From assembly GCA_019695185.1 (NCBI GenBank), contig JAIBAN010000043.1, positions 1-64,000 on the forward strand: a stretch of 64,000 nt of DNA, given 5' to 3'. This DNA is from Blastocatellia bacterium. Its GTDB lineage: Bacteria; Acidobacteriota; Blastocatellia; Chloracidobacteriales; Chloracidobacteriaceae. The position numbers were made by a program, and so were the translations under genes. Below, piece after piece: positions 6,332-51,897 of this stretch. Numbering within the stretch: position 1 is the first letter of the stretch; the number at the start of each line of letters is the position of its first letter. The notes under the pieces were generated by a model, which made no database searches, was not told where the DNA came from, and was given only the letters and a program-made list of their open reading frames with translations.

Positions 6332-6460
6332 GAATTGAGAATTGAGAATTGAGAATTGAGAATGGGCAAACCATCGTTTTGAGACTGACAGTGAGTTGGA
6401 ACAAGGTTTTTTCTGTTTTCTGGTTCTTTGTTTTTAATTCTCAATTCTCAATTCTCAATT
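6326..6460. repeat. GAATTGA heptamer arrays as an inverted pair
   Basis: About five GAATTGA units at 6326..6363 face about three and a half reverse-complement units at 6436..6460 across a 72-base spacer. The left array provides the rpiA stop codon. The right array ends five bases before the glyA Shine-Dalgarno. The pair could form a long hairpin in the rpiA-glyA transcript. Confidence 0.93.
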
Positions 6461-17184: not shown

Positions 17185-17358
17185 AGGGTTCGGGGTTCAG
17201 GGTTCAGGGTCTTTTAAGTTGAGAATTGAGAGTTGAGAGTTGAGAGTTGAAAACTAAACCCCAAACCAAAACCCTAGATTTCCGCTATTCGAAAACCCTG
17301 AACCCTGAACCCTGAACCCTGAACCCTGAACCCTGAACCCTGAACCCTGAACCCTGAA
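17185..17358. repeat. composite heptamer region: GGGTTCA, GAGTTGA, CCCTGAA
   Basis: Three different arrays in sequence: about four GGGTTCA units (17185..17211), about four GAGTTGA-type units (17220..17250) and about nine CCCTGAA units (17295..17358). The first and last are inverted relative to each other. The last unit abuts the pruA stop codon. The gap between the radical SAM start and pruA (16997..17358) holds nothing else I recognise. Confidence 0.93.
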
Positions 17359-18927
17359 TTAAAACTTCTCCGCCACAGATTTGGCTTGCAGGAAGAGCAG
17401 CAGGTAATCGCGTCCACCTGCTTTGGAGTCCGTACCCGACATGTTGAAGCCGCCGAACGGATGCACATCAACCAATGCCCCCGTGCATTTGCGGTTCAGA
17501 TAGAGGTTTCCCACGTGAAAATCGGTTCGAGCCCGTTCCAGCCGTTCACGTTTCTGCGAATAGAGCGCACCGGTCAAACCAAACTCGGTGTTGTTGGCAA
17601 TGTCGAGTGCTTGATCAAAATTCTGCGCTTTGATGACGGCGAGCACCGGGCCAAAAATTTCCTCTTGTGAAATCCGGGCATTCGGGTCCACGTCGGCAAT
17701 CACGGTCGGCTCAATGAAATAGCCGTCCCCCGCAGATTCGAGCTTGCCGCCGCCAGCCACCACGCGGCCTTCACCTTTGCCGATTTCGATGTACTCCAGA
17801 ATGGACTTGTAGGCGCTCTTGCTGGCCACCGGCCCGGTGAAGTTGCGCGGGTCTTTGGATGGTCCGACGCGGAGCTTGTTGGTCCGTTCGACCACCCGTT
17901 CCAGCACGGCATCATAAACATCCTCGACAATCACCGCCCGCGAGCACGCCGAACATTTCTGGCCGGAAAATCCAAAGGCGGCAGACACGATGCCTTCGGC
18001 AGCGGCGTCAAGGTCGGCGGTTTCATCCACCACAATCGTGTCTTTGCCGCCCATTTCGGCCACCACCCGTTTAATCCAAAGCTGCCCCGGAGAACGTTTG
18101 GCCGCCAGTTCGTTAATGCGCAGCCCCACTTCCATCGAGCCGGTAAAGGCAATGAAGCGTGTTTTCGGATGTTCCACCAGAAAATCGCCGACGGCACCGC
18201 CGCTACAGGGCAGGAAGTTGAGTACGCCTGCCGGAAGGCTTACTTTTTCCATCAGTTCGACAAACTTCGCGGCAATCACCGGAGTGTCGCTCGATGGTTT
18301 CAAAACCACCGTGTTGCCAGCGGCAATGGCTGCGGTCGTCATTCCGACCATAATGGCCAGCGGGAAGTTCCACGGCGGAATCACGAGGCCCACACCGAGC
18401 GGAATATAGAAGGCTTGGTTGATTTCGTCCTTGAGCGGCGACTGGGTAACGCCGATAGGCTGGCCATAGCGAATCGCTTCCCGCGCATAGAATTCCATGA
18501 AATCAATTGCTTCGGCCACATCGCCATCGGCCTCGGCCCACGATTTGCCGATTTCATAAACCAGCCAGGCCGACCATTCCATTTTGCGACGGCGCATTTC
18601 CGCAGCAGCGGCAAACAGATAGCGGGCCCGGTCCACTGCCGGAACCCGTTTCCAGCTTTCAAACGCGGTGGTGGCAGTGTTGATGGCCTGGTCGGCCATT
18701 TCACGGGTGGCGCGATGGACACGACCCACCACTTCGCTGGTTTCAGACGGATTGACCGAGGTCAGAATGTCCCCGGTAGTCAGGCGTTCGCCGCCAATGA
18801 CGATGGGATAATCACGCCCCAGTTGGGTCGCCACTGCATCCAGCCCGGCCTGCATGGCATGGGCGTTGGACTCGTTTGAAAAATCGGTAAAAGGTTCATT
18901 GCGGAAAGGTGCAACGGTCAAGGTCAT
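17359..18927 (-). CDS. pruA: L-glutamate gamma-semialdehyde (P5C) dehydrogenase
   Basis: 522 residues, the length of the stand-alone RocA/PruA class. It oxidises glutamate-gamma-semialdehyde to glutamate with NAD, the second step of proline breakdown. Seen: the PWNFPLAIMVGM cofactor region, the GGKDTIVVDE segment with the general-base glutamate, the catalytic cysteine in FSGQKCSACSR (Cys325) and QEEIFGPVLAV. A GGGGGA ribosome site precedes the ATG. No proline dehydrogenase (putA/prodh) is adjacent in this window. Confidence 0.95.
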   Translation of the reverse strand: MTLTVAPFRNEPFTDFSNESNAHAMQAGLDAVATQLGRDYPIVIGGERLTTGDILTSVNPSETSEVVGRVHRATREMADQAINTATTAFESWKRVPAVDRARYLFAAAAEMRRRKMEWSAWLVYEIGKSWAEADGDVAEAIDFMEFYAREAIRYGQPIGVTQSPLKDEINQAFYIPLGVGLVIPPWNFPLAIMVGMTTAAIAAGNTVVLKPSSDTPVIAAKFVELMEKVSLPAGVLNFLPCSGGAVGDFLVEHPKTRFIAFTGSMEVGLRINELAAKRSPGQLWIKRVVAEMGGKDTIVVDETADLDAAAEGIVSAAFGFSGQKCSACSRAVIVEDVYDAVLERVVERTNKLRVGPSKDPRNFTGPVASKSAYKSILEYIEIGKGEGRVVAGGGKLESAGDGYFIEPTVIADVDPNARISQEEIFGPVLAVIKAQNFDQALDIANNTEFGLTGALYSQKRERLERARTDFHVGNLYLNRKCTGALVDVHPFGGFNMSGTDSKAGGRDYLLLFLQAKSVAEKF

Positions 18928-20952: not shown

Positions 20953-20959
20953 ACGTTCT

Positions 20960-21066
20960 GAGTTCCGCCTTCAGGCGGCAGTTTGGATGACAACCTTCAG
21001 GTTGGCTGTTGTAAAGCCCAGCCGCGTAAACGCGGAACTCTAAACTGCCGCCTGAAGGCGGAACTC
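20960..21066. repeat. mosaic palindromic repeat element, copy 1
   Basis: 107 bases bounded by exact 25-bp terminal inverted repeats (20960..20984 and 21042..21066). Inside are four 14-bp palindromes of 6+2+6 form: CCGCCTTCAGGCGG, CAACCTTCAGGTTG, CCGCGTAAACGCGG and CCGCCTGAAGGCGG. Its first 45 bases recur exactly, reverse-complemented, at 51838..51882. It sits between converging genes. Confidence 0.93.
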
Positions 21067-21083
21067 ACAACGAGCCACCGATT

Positions 21084-21446
21084 TCAATGAATCCATTCCG
21101 ATTCCGGGCCACAGCGGGCACATTCCTGGGTTTCCGGGTCAAACATGTCGCTTTGGTGGCAGATTTCACAGCGGTGCGCTGGCGAAACCGATTTGACGTG
21201 CCAACCGCTCCGGTCGGAAATCGAATCATCGTCGTCGGGTCCTGCATAAAGCCTGCGGTGCCGGGCAGCGTAGTCTTCGGTCATCCGCCGACTGGCACCA
21301 TCACCCACCACCCAAAAGTCGTCTGCTTCGGCACGCGGGTCGCGCAATGTGGCCCGCCGTAGCCAAGCCCGCCGTAGCGACTTGCCGACCCACAAAAAAG
21401 AAGCGAAAAACAATAATGCGGAAAAGAAAACGTCAATGAAGAGCAT
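21084..21446 (-). CDS. small membrane-anchored zinc-ribbon protein
   Basis: 120 residues from the ATG at 21446; a GTG at 21467 would add seven. One N-terminal membrane segment (about 1-20) is followed by a charged middle and a C-terminal ribbon with CEIC and CARC, two CxxC knuckles spaced 13 residues apart. The gene is oriented away from moaB, whose start lies 77 bases off. I cannot name a family. Confidence 0.65.
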   Translation of the reverse strand: MLFIDVFFSALLFFASFLWVGKSLRRAWLRRATLRDPRAEADDFWVVGDGASRRMTEDYAARHRRLYAGPDDDDSISDRSGWHVKSVSPAHRCEICHQSDMFDPETQECARCGPESEWIH

Positions 21447-21523
21447 GCCTGGTTTCTTGCTTGCCACTTGGGATATGACGACCGGAATTCAGACAATTTG
21501 AACATACCCTTGGTTTGATTTTT

Positions 21524-24347: not shown

Positions 24348-25103
24348 TTAGCTTTGAGATTGGGAAAATATCATTTGAACGGTTCCCGCCAGCACTTGGC
24401 AAGCCAAAGGCAGGTTCCATTCCTGACGCGCCCGGTCTCCGGTGGTATTGCTGACAACCCGCAGTTCGGCAAAGGGGATGTGTTGGCACTGGGCTATCCA
24501 GGCGGCGGGAAAGCCTTCCATGGCTTCGACTTTGGCTCCGGAACGGCGTTCCATCTCAAGGGCGACTTCATCGGTTCCGGAACAGCTTGCAACGGTGGCA
24601 ACTCCGGCCCGCAGTACCTGTGGCAAACGGGCTGCAACTTCTGCCGACCAGGGATTTTCCAGACTGATGCGGTTGGGAAAATCTTCGGTCAGGCCAAAGC
24701 CCAGGCCGCGCAGGTCCCGAAAGCCTGCCGGGGTGACGATGCCCGATTGCGGGTCGCATTCGCTGTCGGCCAGCACGACATCACCGATTTTCAGCCCTGA
24801 GTTGGGGTAGGCCCCCCCGACGCCAAATTGCAGAACGGCAGCGAATGGTTCCGCTCCGAGCACGGTCGCAAGTGCCGCCGTTGTCCGCACCATGCCAACC
24901 CCGGTCAACAAAAAAGCTACGGAATGCCCATTGAGCACGCCGTAGCGGGTCGTCCATACGCCAAATTGTTTTTCTTCTTTGAATTGAATCCGGGGCAGCA
25001 GGTCAGCGGCTTCGCGCTCAACCGCAGCCACCAGGAGAATTGAGAAGTTCGAATTGAGAATTGAGAATTCCTGATTTGAAAACGGTGTGGGTTGTTTTTG
25101 CAT
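24348..25103 (-). CDS. mqnB: futalosine hydrolase with repeat-derived N-terminus
   Basis: 251 residues from the ATG at 25103. MqnB removes the base from futalosine in the alternative menaquinone route. Family motifs: LQFGVGGAYPNSGLKIGDVV and VEAMEGFPAAWIA, the nucleosidase catalytic region. Homologues start at about the sequence ILLVAAVERE. Here some 22 extra residues precede it, and most (EFSILNSNFS) are a translation of the GAATTGA array. Either the array became coding or a non-ATG start at the boundary is used. Confidence 0.9.
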   Translation of the reverse strand: MQKQPTPFSNQEFSILNSNFSILLVAAVEREAADLLPRIQFKEEKQFGVWTTRYGVLNGHSVAFLLTGVGMVRTTAALATVLGAEPFAAVLQFGVGGAYPNSGLKIGDVVLADSECDPQSGIVTPAGFRDLRGLGFGLTEDFPNRISLENPWSAEVAARLPQVLRAGVATVASCSGTDEVALEMERRSGAKVEAMEGFPAAWIAQCQHIPFAELRVVSNTTGDRARQEWNLPLACQVLAGTVQMIFSQSQS

Positions 25104-25194
25104 CCTCAAGCACTACATTGGTTCTTGGCTTGCAATGAAAGGCGTTCCTCCAATAGCCAGCCAATTCTCAATTCTCAATTCGAACTTCTCAATT
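25038..25194. repeat. inverted repeat element, 32-bp arms, between mqnB and ilvE
   Basis: Exact 32-bp inverted arms (25038..25069 and 25163..25194) built from GAATTGA units interrupted once by AAGTTC. The spacer is 93 bases. The left arm is inside the mqnB reading frame; the right arm overlaps the ilvE stop codon. The shared interruption shows that the two arms are one duplication, not independent arrays. Confidence 0.95.
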
Positions 25195-26159: not shown

Positions 26160-26313
26160 AAATTGAGAATTGAGAATTGAGAATTGAGAGTTAAGAATTT
26201 GAAATCCTGTTCGAGGTGATAAAGCCATCTGAATTTCTTTTGAAGAAATTTGTTTCTCAAAATTCAGAACACTTGGTTTTTCATTCTCAATTCTCAATTC
26301 TCAATTCTCAATT
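26160..26313. repeat. GAATTGA arrays as an inverted pair between ilvE and the MocR gene
   Basis: About four units at 26160..26190 and four reverse-complement units at 26283..26313 enclose a 92-base spacer. The left array starts just upstream of the ilvE ribosome site. The right one overlaps the MocR stop codon (26312..26314). Confidence 0.93.
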
Positions 26314-29280: not shown

Positions 29281-29432
29281 AATTGAGAATTGAGAATTGA
29301 GAATTGAGAATTGAGAATGAAAACCAAGCTATGTTGAATTCCAGGAACTTTTTTTCTTCAGCAGAAATCAGGGCATCCTCATAACCTGAATGCGATTTCA
29401 AATTCTCAATTCTCAATTCTCAATTCTCAATT
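29281..29432. repeat. GAATTGA arrays as an inverted pair
   Basis: Five units (29281..29317) and four and a half reverse-complement units (29401..29432) around an 83-base spacer. The right array overlaps the DUF1501 stop codon at 29431..29433. The left ends next to the start of the choice-of-anchor gene. Confidence 0.93.
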
Positions 29433-46580: not shown

Positions 46581-48740
46581 ATGCACCGAGGAACACTTTT
46601 TATTATTGGATTGCTTTTTTCCTGTCTTTTCACTCCGTTTTTGAATCAACCTGGCTTTCAAAAAACGCCCTTTCCAGCAAAAGTTGAGGCCCAAACCGAG
46701 ATTCCCTGTGAGGTTTGGCGACCAACGTTTGTTTCCGACCCGATGGCTTCGCCCCAGGTGGGAGGAGGGTACGGGGCTGTCTGGACCGGCACTGAGTTGA
46801 TTGCCTGGGGCGGTAATCCGGAAGCGCCAAGCGGAAGCCGCTATAATCCGGTTTCACATACCTGGAAAGCCATGAGCCAGGTCAATGCCCCTGAAACACG
46901 GCAGGAATTTTCCGCTGTCTGGACCGGGACGGAAATGATTGTCTGGGGCGGACGGTTTCGCAGCATTGGTACCCGTAAACTGAACACCGGCGGGCGTTAT
47001 AACCCGGTTTCCGATACCTGGACCCCAACTTCGACCGTCAATGCACCGGAGCCACGCCAGGACCATTCCGCTGTCTGGACCGGCACGGAAATGATTGTTT
47101 GGGGCGGGATTGTGAATGGTTTTCCCACCGGAGGAAAATACAATCCGACAACTGATACCTGGACGCCCATCAACGAAACCGGGGCTCCGCCCTTGCGCGA
47201 CTCACATTTTTCCATGTGGACCGGAAAAGAAATGTTGATTTGGGGTACCCAGGAACAGCTTTCCATGACCGGTGGCCGCTATGACCCGGCCAGCAACACC
47301 TGGAAACCCATCAGTTTCACCAATGCGCCAACGATGCGGACAGGGGCTTCGGTTACCTGGACCGGTACAGAAATGATTGTCTGGGGCGGCTATGACCGGG
47401 TGAACCAGAAATACCTGAATACCGGCAGCCGTTACGATCCGGGAACAGACCGATGGCTTCCGATGACACTGGAAAACGCGCTGCCTCCCGGTTCTTATTA
47501 TTTTGCCGTTTGGATGGGAACAGGCTTGTTGGTAGTGGGGCCGCAGTCGCCAAATGTGGCAATGTATCTGCCGACCGCTGACCAGTGGGTGTCCATTTCC
47601 TACGACCCGGCACTCTCTTATTATCATGGGGGAATACCCATTTGGACCGGGAAAGAGGTTTTATTCGGCACCTGGAACATGGTTCATTACAACCCGCAAA
47701 CCGACCGTTGGAAGGTGGTGCGAGTGACTAATGAAGCACCCGGAGCCATGTTGTGGCATACGGCGGTGTGGAGTGGGGCGGAAATGATTGTTTGGGGACA
47801 TCTCAACGGTAAGCGCTACGACCCGGTGGCCAATCGTTGGAAACTCATGAGCGAGGTTGATGCCCCTTCCCAGCGGTGGCGTCACACGGCCATCTGGACC
47901 GGCACGGAAATGATAGTCTGGGGCGGGGTCCTCACACAACAGGCTGGAAACACCGGAGCGCGTTACAATCCTGCCACGGATACCTGGACTCCCATGAGCC
48001 GGAAAGGCGCGCCGTTGCCCCGCTTTTTCCATAGTGCTGTCTGGACCGGGCATAAGATGATTGTCTGGGGTGGGGTTTTCTTTCCCAATTACCCAAGCGG
48101 GTTTGAAGCAATATTTCGGAATGATGGTGGAATCTATGACCCGCAAACCGATACCTGGGAGCCTTTGGGGGCAACCCCGTTGCTTGAGGAGCGCAGTGAG
48201 CATTTGGCTGTGTGGACGGGAACGGAAATGATTATCTTTGGCGGGAACAACTATTCCAAGCATCTGTTGCCAAACGGAGCCCGGTACAATCCGGAAACCC
48301 ATACCTGGCTTCCGCTGCCAACGGAAAATGCTCCGGATGATCAGATGACCGGTGTTTGGACCGGAAAAGAGCTGATTCTGGTCGGGTCCCATCGAATTTT
48401 TGTCCCTCCGGACCGGCAAATCAGCGTTTTTACTGGCAGGCGCTACAATCCTGAAGAGGACGTTTGGCACAGCATCAACGTGGAGGGAATTCCGGAAAGG
48501 GTTTCCGGCTACGTTTCTGCGGTGTGGACCGGCACGGAAATGGTGGTTGGAACAGATGTGGCTTACAATCCGGTGACGGACCGCTGGCGCAGCCTTTCAC
48601 CTATCAATTTTGAACGCGGGGTTGCAGCGTTTCCCTCGATTTGGACCGGCAGCGAGGTCATTATCTGGGGTGGCGGTCATCCGCTTGAACCGGACCTTCG
48701 GGTACGAACCGGCGGACGCTATCGTCCCTGCCCGGATTGA
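46581..48740 (+). CDS. secreted kelch-like beta-propeller protein
   Basis: 719 residues from the ATG at 46581, with GAGG six bases upstream; the ATG at 46569 has no site. After a signal peptide (about 1-36), some thirteen repeats of about 45-50 residues follow the pattern AVWTGTEMIVWGG and YNPATDTWTPM, the kelch signature. The propeller probably binds carbohydrate or protein at the surface. The gene follows an accessory block of TonB-like, Uma2 and pRiA4b genes and is preceded by TTAACA repeats. Confidence 0.9.
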   Translation: MHRGTLFIIGLLFSCLFTPFLNQPGFQKTPFPAKVEAQTEIPCEVWRPTFVSDPMASPQVGGGYGAVWTGTELIAWGGNPEAPSGSRYNPVSHTWKAMSQVNAPETRQEFSAVWTGTEMIVWGGRFRSIGTRKLNTGGRYNPVSDTWTPTSTVNAPEPRQDHSAVWTGTEMIVWGGIVNGFPTGGKYNPTTDTWTPINETGAPPLRDSHFSMWTGKEMLIWGTQEQLSMTGGRYDPASNTWKPISFTNAPTMRTGASVTWTGTEMIVWGGYDRVNQKYLNTGSRYDPGTDRWLPMTLENALPPGSYYFAVWMGTGLLVVGPQSPNVAMYLPTADQWVSISYDPALSYYHGGIPIWTGKEVLFGTWNMVHYNPQTDRWKVVRVTNEAPGAMLWHTAVWSGAEMIVWGHLNGKRYDPVANRWKLMSEVDAPSQRWRHTAIWTGTEMIVWGGVLTQQAGNTGARYNPATDTWTPMSRKGAPLPRFFHSAVWTGHKMIVWGGVFFPNYPSGFEAIFRNDGGIYDPQTDTWEPLGATPLLEERSEHLAVWTGTEMIIFGGNNYSKHLLPNGARYNPETHTWLPLPTENAPDDQMTGVWTGKELILVGSHRIFVPPDRQISVFTGRRYNPEEDVWHSINVEGIPERVSGYVSAVWTGTEMVVGTDVAYNPVTDRWRSLSPINFERGVAAFPSIWTGSEVIIWGGGHPLEPDLRVRTGGRYRPCPD

Positions 48741-48803: not shown

Positions 48804-50747
48804 TCAGGCCGGTTCAATCCAGCGTTCGTACCACAAACTGAGATTCAACAGGCCCCAGAGGTGGAAACTATAGTCCATTTTCCCCGCCTTGTGTTCGGCC
48901 AGCAGCCGTTCAATCTCGCGGTAGTCAAAGAAATTTCGTTTTCGCAGCCGTGAGTTGAGGATGTGGTCTTCCAGTTGCTGGCCGAAACCGGCCATGAACC
49001 ATTCTTTAATGGGCAGGCCGAAGCCCTGTTTTTTACGGTAAATGATGTTGTCGGGCAGGATGCCTTCGAGAGCTTTTTTGAGGATGTATTTCGTCTCGCC
49101 GTTCTTGTATTTGAGACTGCGCGGAATCGTCATGGCAAATTCCACCAGGTGGTGGTCCAGAAACGGCACGCGGGCTTCGATGGAGGTCGCCATGGTGATT
49201 TTGTCCACCCGCATCAGCAACAGTTCGGCCAGCCGCAGTTTGAGGTCCATGTAGGTCATCCGCTCCAGAAAATCCCCATCGGGTTTGCGGCTGTCGAAGC
49301 GGTCGAAAATCTCCCGCACAACCTGGTGGGATGACACTCCGTTCATCCGCTTTTGAAAATCCCGTGAGAGCAGGCGGTTTTTGCTCACCTCGTCATAAAC
49401 CACGGTGCCGCCCCAGAAAAGTTCTTCGCCATCACCCCAGCGGCGGACCAAATCCGGCAGGAGCTTTTTCCCACGGGTCATCAGATTGCGGGCGGCAAAG
49501 TCGCTGAAGGGAGCGGCGGCGGCGGCCAGGCCGCGCTTGACGCCGTTGGGCAGCCGCTCCAGTTGGCCCCAGCCTTTTTCATAGATTTTCAGGAAATCCA
49601 CATAATTCGGATAACCGCAGAAAATTTCGTCCGAACCTTCGCCCACCTGCACCACAATCGTCCCGCTGTCGCGCACCAGTTTCGAGACGTAATAGAGCGG
49701 CACGCAGACCGGGTCGGCAATCGGTTCGTCCTGATGGAAAATCAGTTCCGGCAGAAAGGAAACGACTTCCTCCGGTCCAATCAGAACCTCGTGGTGGCGG
49801 GTGGCGAAATGCTGGGAAATCTGCCGGGCATACTGGAGTTCGTTATACTGCTCCAGTCCATGAAAGCCGACCGTAAAGGTCCGCACCGGTTCGTCGGAGC
49901 AAGCCGCCATGAGGGCGACGTTGGCGCTTGAATCCACGCCACCGCTCAGAAAAACACCAAACGGAACATCCGACATCATCCGTTTTTCGACGGCTTTGGT
50001 GAGCAAATCACGGATGCGCTCAATACATTCGGCTTCGTCGGGAGGCTGGGCCGGAGTGGCGACAATGGCGTCCCAGTAGCGTTCAATCCGGATGCCCTCC
50101 CGGTTGCAAATCAGCATGTGGCCCGGTGGGAGTTTCTGGATTCCTTTGAACAGGGTTTGCGGCGAAGGCGTCGTGAAAAAAGTCAGGTAATGGTACAGCG
50201 CGGTTTCGTCCACGTCGCGGGAAACCGCCGGGTGTTCCAGAATGGCCTTGATTTCCGAGCCGAAAATCAGCCGTCCGTCAACAATCGTGTAATAGAGTGG
50301 TTTGACGCCAATCCGGTCACGGACCAGCACCAGTTCCTCTTTGATGGAATGCCAGAGCGCCATCCCAAACATGCCCTGAAGCGGCTCAACAAATTCGTAG
50401 CCGCGTTCCTCAAACAAGTGAATGATGGTTTCCGTGTCGGATTCCGATTTGTATACATGACCTTGGGCAATCAGTCCGGGGCGCAGGCTGCGGTGGTTGT
50501 AGATTTCGCCGTTGTAGGCAATCCAGACGGTGCCGTCTTCGTTCGTCATTGGCTGATTGCCTGCCGGTGACAGGTCAACAATCGCCAACCGCCGGAAGCC
50601 AAGGCCGACTTTCCGGTCCGGGCTGATGTAATTTCCGGCGCTGTCCGGGCCGCGATGCTCCATTGCGTCGCGCATCCGGGTGAGAACGGTTTCGGTTACC
50701 TCGCCGGAAGTCCGGCCAAATTCATAAATTCCGCAAATTCCACACAT
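48804..50747 (-). CDS. asnB: glutamine-hydrolysing asparagine synthetase
   Basis: 647 residues. Class II glutaminase N-terminus (MCGICG, Cys2 nucleophile) and a synthetase domain with the pyrophosphate loop LSGGVDSS. Converts aspartate plus glutamine to asparagine. Some AsnB-type proteins act in cell-envelope or secondary pathways rather than asparagine supply, so the role is probable. No ribosome site is visible before the ATG at 50747, because a GGGTTCA array begins six bases away. Confidence 0.95.
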   Translation of the reverse strand: MCGICGIYEFGRTSGEVTETVLTRMRDAMEHRGPDSAGNYISPDRKVGLGFRRLAIVDLSPAGNQPMTNEDGTVWIAYNGEIYNHRSLRPGLIAQGHVYKSESDTETIIHLFEERGYEFVEPLQGMFGMALWHSIKEELVLVRDRIGVKPLYYTIVDGRLIFGSEIKAILEHPAVSRDVDETALYHYLTFFTTPSPQTLFKGIQKLPPGHMLICNREGIRIERYWDAIVATPAQPPDEAECIERIRDLLTKAVEKRMMSDVPFGVFLSGGVDSSANVALMAACSDEPVRTFTVGFHGLEQYNELQYARQISQHFATRHHEVLIGPEEVVSFLPELIFHQDEPIADPVCVPLYYVSKLVRDSGTIVVQVGEGSDEIFCGYPNYVDFLKIYEKGWGQLERLPNGVKRGLAAAAAPFSDFAARNLMTRGKKLLPDLVRRWGDGEELFWGGTVVYDEVSKNRLLSRDFQKRMNGVSSHQVVREIFDRFDSRKPDGDFLERMTYMDLKLRLAELLLMRVDKITMATSIEARVPFLDHHLVEFAMTIPRSLKYKNGETKYILKKALEGILPDNIIYRKKQGFGLPIKEWFMAGFGQQLEDHILNSRLRKRNFFDYREIERLLAEHKAGKMDYSFHLWGLLNLSLWYERWIEPA

Positions 50748-50753
50748 AAGAGC

Positions 50754-50900
50754 AGGGTTCAGGGTTCAGGGTTCAGGGTTCAGGGTCCAGGGTTCAGGGT
50801 TCAGGGTTCAGGGTTTTCGAATACCGGAAATCTGGGTTGGACTTGGGTTTGAATTCTCAATTCTCAATTCTCAATTCTCAATTAAAAAGACCCTGAACCC
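50754..50900. repeat. composite heptamer region between asnB and rsmI
   Basis: GGGTTCA array (50754..50816, about nine units), then a 34-base spacer, a TCAATTC array (50852..50882, about four units) and a single CCCTGAACCCTA remnant (50889..50902). The remnant supplies part of the rsmI stop codon. Confidence 0.93.
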
Positions 50901-51730: not shown

Positions 51731-51764
51731 GAAAAAGGGAACTGAGGACTGAAGCTAAAGTTTT

Positions 51765-51882
51765 GAGTTCCGCCTTCAGGCGGAGGCTCTGAGTTCCGCG
51801 TTTACGCGGCTGAATGTTTTCTTCCTTTTCGGGAAAACAACCTGAAGGTTGTCATCCAAACTGCCGCCTGAAGGCGGAACTC
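51765..51882. repeat. mosaic palindromic repeat element, copy 2
   Basis: Same palindrome modules as copy 1 in a different order: CCGCCTTCAGGCGG (51770), CCGCGTTTACGCGG (51796), CAACCTGAAGGTTG (51838) and CCGCCTGAAGGCGG (51864). A 45-base stretch (51838..51882) is the exact reverse complement of 20960..21004, and a 22-base stretch (51791..51812) of copy 1's P2 module. It ends 16 bases before the phosphatase stop codon. Confidence 0.93.
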
Positions 51883-51897
51883 AAAACGCAAAACTGT

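Follow-up and report, generated by a model that had tools for sequence, protein, structure and literature searches.

The 64,000-nucleotide stretch of DNA analyzed here (the window) contains two copies of a short palindromic repeat, and the question is what kind of element these copies represent and which enzyme could serve them. The first copy (20955..21071, no strand assigned) consists of four 24-nt units around a loop: unit A (20955..20978, plus strand; GTTCTGAGTT followed by the hairpin CCGCCTTCAGGCGG), the variant unit B (20981..21004, plus strand; GTTTGGATGA followed by the hairpin CAACCTTCAGGTTG) in 26-bp register with unit A, unit C (21022..21045, minus strand; hairpin CCGCGTTTACGCGG), and unit A once more in the inverted arm (21048..21071, minus strand). 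The CAACCTTCAGGTTG palindrome of unit B belongs to the same 24-nt unit in register (GTTTGGATGACAACCTTCAGGTTG), with its stem changes compensated. The second copy (51760..51887, no strand assigned) contains units A (51760..51783) and C (51786..51809) on the plus strand, a loop, and units B (51838..51861) and A (51864..51887, inverted arm) on the minus strand.

The preliminary description of this locus had reported four palindromes of 6+2+6 form in copy 1, 25-bp exact inverted ends, a second copy at approximately 51765-51882 and a 45-base exact inverse match between the copies. All of these were recovered: the palindromes lie at 20965-20978, 20991-21004, 21022-21035 and 21048-21061, the inverted ends extend to arms of 34 nt that are 94% complementary, the second copy is present, and the inverse match covers about 46 bases. 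It had also regarded the modules as shuffled between the copies, which did not hold up, as both copies have the identical module order (A> B> loop C< A< in copy 1) in opposite orientations. The reverse complement of copy 1 reads A> C> loop B< A< and aligns with copy 2 from end to end; the alignment score was 182.5 with copy 1 reverse-complemented vs 123 in direct orientation.

As single-stranded DNA, copies 1 and 2 gave fold energies of −44.7 and −42.0 kcal/mol, respectively, against means of −16.3 and −17.1 for shuffled sequences (z = −10.1 and −9.2), and none of the 200 shuffles folded equally well. There were no Rfam matches above the gathering score in the window. Copy 1 is preceded on its left by a gene for a VWA-domain protein; to its right lies a 127-aa minus-strand ORF (21084-21467) with a 52% match in another genome, G051, and copy 1 may thus be located between convergent genes, although the gene caller classed the gap as tandem. 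Copy 2 is flanked by a tetrapyrrole-methylase-family gene and a dual-specificity-phosphatase-like gene.

The unit consists of a foot, GTTYNGAGTN, which includes the guide tetranucleotide NGAG, a 5-bp stem and a TTCA or TTTA loop. In 65 outer flanks from this genome and 117 distinct copies from elsewhere, the information starts at GTTY and nothing upstream is conserved, and for this reason the outer limits of each copy were placed 5 bp further out on both sides than in the preliminary description. The stem variants found here (CCGCC, CCGCG, CCACC, CAGCC and CAACC) are compensated. Over 15 variants from several genomes, five of the five stem pairs vary on both sides, and all 75 stem cells pair, with slid-partner controls failing; as these 15 rows were chosen as hairpins, the paired percentage is biased, and the informative part is the count of compensated changes. 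Ladders of the REP-foot heptamer GTTTTGA lie on the outer side of some REP arrays, and inverted pairs of such ladders occur by themselves as well (C11:99717-99821, C171:60501-60620, C175:3425 and C7:24162, given as contig:position); the foot GTTYTGAGTTC contains a 7-bp near-repeat, at which slippage could occur.

The preliminary description had suggested a REP/BIME-type or MITE family, provided that the genome holds more than these two copies, and scanning of the genome (8.33 Mb, 222 contigs) bore out the REP/BIME type. There are 385 perfect CCGCCTTCAGGCGG palindromes (188 + 197; reversed control, 0), and with up to three mismatches allowed, 579 copies of the 24-nt unit were counted (control, 0). 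Element statistics were obtained from 1.137 Mb of the genome, picked in part for containing elements. In this sample of 36 elements, the order was (>)n loop (<)m in all 30 two-armed cases (one of which is an overlapping match and not a true pair), neighboring units of the same orientation were spaced by 26 bp in 71 of 73 instances, and the loops were mostly dissimilar between elements. Thirty-two of the 36 elements were assigned to intergenic gaps, at a median distance of about 20 bp from the neighboring genes. No preference for a gap type was found (tandem 25, convergent 4, divergent 3; p = 0.38), the classes being approximate because the gene calls came from a simple codon-score script. The window element is a REPIN/BIME, made of inverted REP units with arms in tandem at 26 bp and a variable loop: the unit falls in the 20-60 bp range, is palindromic, extragenic and present in high copy number, pairs inversely around a spacer and forms a compensated hairpin.

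Neither an empty site nor a polymorphic insertion turned up. Beside the tetrapyrrole-methylase-family gene, synteny is broken in the nearest relative, G051, which has no phosphatase gene there and so offers no clean empty site, and a BLAST search with joined flanks within the sampled genome returned repeats only. The viral collection contained no exact match, so no phage carriage was seen, and a literature search with the letters of the motif retrieved unrelated papers only.

Other repeats were noticed during this work. One consists of inverted 7-bp ladders, (GAATTGA)n - loop - (TCAATTC)m, with a loop that is mostly 56-125 nt and differs per copy; in the window, ladder pairs lie at 6332-6455, 25051-25181, 26167-26308 and 29287-29427, and a single ladder near 50857. 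The 1.14-Mb sample contains 46 clusters of this ladder, of which 43 are outside genes, and all 30 paired ones have the > then < order. In yet another heptamer ladder, (GGGTTCA)n and the inverted (TGAACCC)m enclose a GAATTGA or GAGTTGA ladder (window 17190-17360 and 50740-50900). At C185:47337-47382 and 47859-47905 (locus L256), inverted repeats (CGTGC[GA]TTAAAA[TC]ACACGGCTACAATCA...) flank an IS200-type Y1 gene, and related copies adjoin or sit inside REP elements (C7:41453 and C3:9310-9354).

The preliminary description had noted that no RAYT gene is near the repeats and had proposed a genome search for one. The first point is correct for the window, not for the genome: the search identified a cognate RAYT, a 200-aa protein encoded on contig C213, inside 26-bp units and at the position where the loop of a REPIN would be. 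The gene is bracketed by three and five tandem units of the window family, at 26-bp spacing and pointing inward, which is the arrangement of a REPtron (a RAYT gene bracketed by dispersed REPs). The frame is intact, and the protein contains the motifs NHYH, YVHHNP, VWH and HSPPH; HYH, Tyr147 and Asn151 are invariant. It scored 66 bits against the NCBIfam model REP_Tyr_transpos (cut-off 80) and 19.6 against Pfam Y1_Tnp (cut-off 23), and a profile of 15 relatives matched a single PDB entry, TnpArep 4er8 (E = 3.9e-7). With one 100% match in the genome, the gene is single-copy, and no tnpB was present among the ORFs listed beside it; the protein thus shows the features of a RAYT/TnpA-REP, namely an HUH motif, a single tyrosine followed by xxNP, no TnpB partner and a single copy.

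Two further RAYTs were found on contigs C35 and C86. The C86 protein was first seen as a weak Pfam Y1_Tnp match, the other matches being mostly IS200-type genes, and it passes the cut-off of REP_Tyr_transpos with 87 bits. The C213 and C35 proteins were recovered with the C86 protein as query; the Pfam search missed C213, whose score is below the cut-off. The three RAYTs go with three different REPs, each gene lying between inward-pointing REP arrays: the C35 gene is flanked by 2 + 2 units carrying CAAGCTTTAGCTTG, and the C86 gene by units of the GGAGTGCGGCGACTTGTCGCCGC type. The copy numbers of the respective REPs, counted at differing mismatch limits, were 579 units for C213, 81 matches for C86 and nine for C35.

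The exact 19-mer GAGTTCCGCCTTCAGGCGG, for which approximately 1.9 chance occurrences are expected in the 257-Gb collection searched, was present in at least 100 stretches, those listed being mostly from Acidobacteria, Verrucomicrobia, Planctomycetes and Lentisphaerae; isolated single matches, e.g. in Streptomyces or Lysobacterales, may be due to chance. Within the phylum of the window it was found in 11 of 396 genomes, all from the same class. RAYTs related to that of C213, with 45-63% identity, are bracketed by the hairpin unit of the window in Acidobacteria (G398, G235 and G346), Phycisphaerae (G412) and Verrucomicrobia (G401 and G409), and in several genomes the layout varies in that two complete REPINs flank the RAYT. 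The unit also occurs in genomes without a full-length C213-type RAYT, with 28 copies in G051, 59 in G397, 31 in G399 and 29 in G400. The RAYT tree splits into two deep clades (support 100/100). Wherever REPs were detected, their type agrees with the clade: clade one has GAGT followed by one spacer base and a hairpin of 5 bp, and clade two GGAGTGCGG. The Phycisphaerae RAYT nests among those of Verrucomicrobia, a tree position that hints at horizontal transfer.

The units of the window's family carry NGAG as guide here and in 123 of 128 counted copies from other genomes, which sets them apart from the GTAG REP superfamily, where GTAG or GTGG lies 0-2 nt away from the hairpin. In genome G251 (locus L392, 1362-2208), a RAYT of the C213-type clade lies between two REPINs built of GTTTC-GTAG-T[CA]-CCGCCTTCAGGCGG units, i.e. 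a canonical GTAG foot on the hairpin of the window. Since GTAG occurs there on the same hairpin, NGAG looks like a diverged guide.

Given the observed architecture, copy number, unit boundaries, stem covariation, extragenic placement and bracketing of RAYT genes here and elsewhere, the window copies are very probably non-autonomous REPINs of the BIME type, belonging to a REP family served by the C213 RAYT that the genome encodes once. TnpA-REP is an HUH single-strand endonuclease. How the present system would cut, move and lengthen its arms can be outlined by analogy. A single-stranded state of the region, arising for instance in lagging-strand synthesis, would give the RAYT access; the protein would bind the REP strand through foot and hairpin, as do E. 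coli and Stenotrophomonas TnpA-REP, the predicted substrate being single-stranded GTTTGGAGTTCCGCCTTCAGGCGG, and its tyrosine would cut near the REP, at a dinucleotide that the guide specifies. In the Stenotrophomonas system, mutating the A or the G position of the guide abolished cleavage (PMC8266576); the A and G conserved in NGAG correspond to these required positions, so that cutting at CT is predicted. The inverted REP pair would be moved or copied into other extragenic sites, and the arms may then gain 26-bp units in head-to-tail orientation, whether by slippage, unequal recombination or strand transfer by the RAYT. Observations that go against this explanation are the lack of an empty site, the unit-bearing genomes without a full-length RAYT, the scores below cut-off, and the foot, which has NGAG and not GT[AG]G. 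A broader proposal, which we offer as tentative and open to considerable doubt, is that of one REP-RAYT lineage in which the 24-nt unit has stayed nearly letter-perfect across phyla, the RAYTs have diverged to about 50% identity, and spread has been partly horizontal; here the succession of tandem arms, RAYT and tandem arms would form a self-contained, transposon-like REPtron, and the REPINs would be the same element with filler in place of the RAYT.

The family could instead be a relic of an old spread, its RAYT now a domesticated nuclease and its copy changes confined to slippage or recombination of the 26-bp arms. The exact 26-bp register in which arm number varies, the mostly dissimilar loops, the genomes that hold copies without a matching RAYT and the single-copy state of the gene would all agree with such a history. 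It is nevertheless rather unlikely, as the C213 RAYT retains its frame and catalytic residues, most units still have the perfect palindrome, and 46 bp are exactly common to both window copies.

Strong hairpins located just behind genes, at a median distance of about 20 bp, could also mean that the copies are bidirectional terminators or mRNA stabilizers kept by selection on host genes and not a mobile family, and such roles of REPs have been described in the literature. There was no enrichment in convergent gaps (p = 0.38, as above), the cross-phylum conservation of 24 nt and the sharp unit boundary exceed what a terminator needs, and the units bracket a RAYT gene; we therefore consider this very improbable as the main explanation, although a secondary host role of the REPINs is possible. 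Hardly any likelihood is left for the idea that the copies are MITEs, mobilized at their terminal inverted repeats by the conventional transposase of a DDE or IS200-type insertion sequence. The inverted ends and small size of the copies, and the IS200-type genes of this genome, are compatible with a MITE; however, each unit is a palindrome in itself, the units stand in tandem and in varying numbers, the gene that they enclose encodes a RAYT, and around the eight IS200-type Y1 loci examined the motif was found neither exactly nor at up to four mismatches, so that at these loci the link expected of an IS200/IS605 MITE is missing.

A REP/RAYT system with REPINs and REPtrons is of a known kind. 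The REPINs of Pseudomonas fluorescens SBW25 are likewise extragenic, hairpin-forming and RAYT-linked, with two REPs in inverse orientation around a spacer that varies, and are present in hundreds per genome (PMC3116915); tandem REP arrays were also reported (Bertels and Rainey 2011, PMC3116915). The SBW25 REPs start with GTGG or similar (PMC3116915), whereas the guide here is NGAG and each arm is a 26-bp tandem array. The C213 protein fits RAYT subclass 2.8 (NHYH, W[YH], YxHxNP, about 199 aa, proline-rich N-terminus; PMC6006769), a likeness drawn from its motifs and not from placement in a tree; the subclass was sampled from Cyanobacteria and has GT[AG]G feet (PMC6006769), in contrast with NGAG here and GTAG in the relative G251. 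E. coli TnpA-REP (4er8; PMC8266576) shares with it the tyrosine and asparagine four residues apart and a substrate of foot plus hairpin; unlike the longer, bulged stem and GTAG foot of the E. coli REPs (PMC8266576), the stem here is a perfect 5 bp and the guide is NGAG, in which A3 and G4 are kept.

In the parts of Di Nocera 2013 (PMC3733652) available to us, REPtrons and TIRtrons are described in which a RAYT is bracketed by its own repeats, as here, and species with several families have family-specific REPtrons. The same parts name Acidobacteria among the hosts of TIR-flanked RAYTs, and it is possible that the window family is identical to one of these TIRs; the families covered there have GTAG or CGTC tags or unrelated TIRs, and that text contains no GGAG family. 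A GGAG foot is likewise not mentioned in the text, figures aside, of the REP/RAYT literature as far as it was accessible. Within these limits, and provisionally, the combination of NGAG as guide, a RAYT enclosed by tandem arms of 26-bp units and one REP common to several phyla looks new. REPs have been described as unconserved between species (PMC6006769), in contrast with the identical unit in Acidobacteria, Verrucomicrobia, Planctomycetes and Lentisphaerae, where several copies adjoin RAYTs that are about half identical. Large REP families can escape surveys that consider GT[AG]G feet only. Three RAYTs with three REPs in one genome, together with NGAG or GTAG on the same hairpin beside related RAYTs, amount to a natural experiment that can help to tell the RAYT residues recognizing the hairpin from those recognizing the guide.
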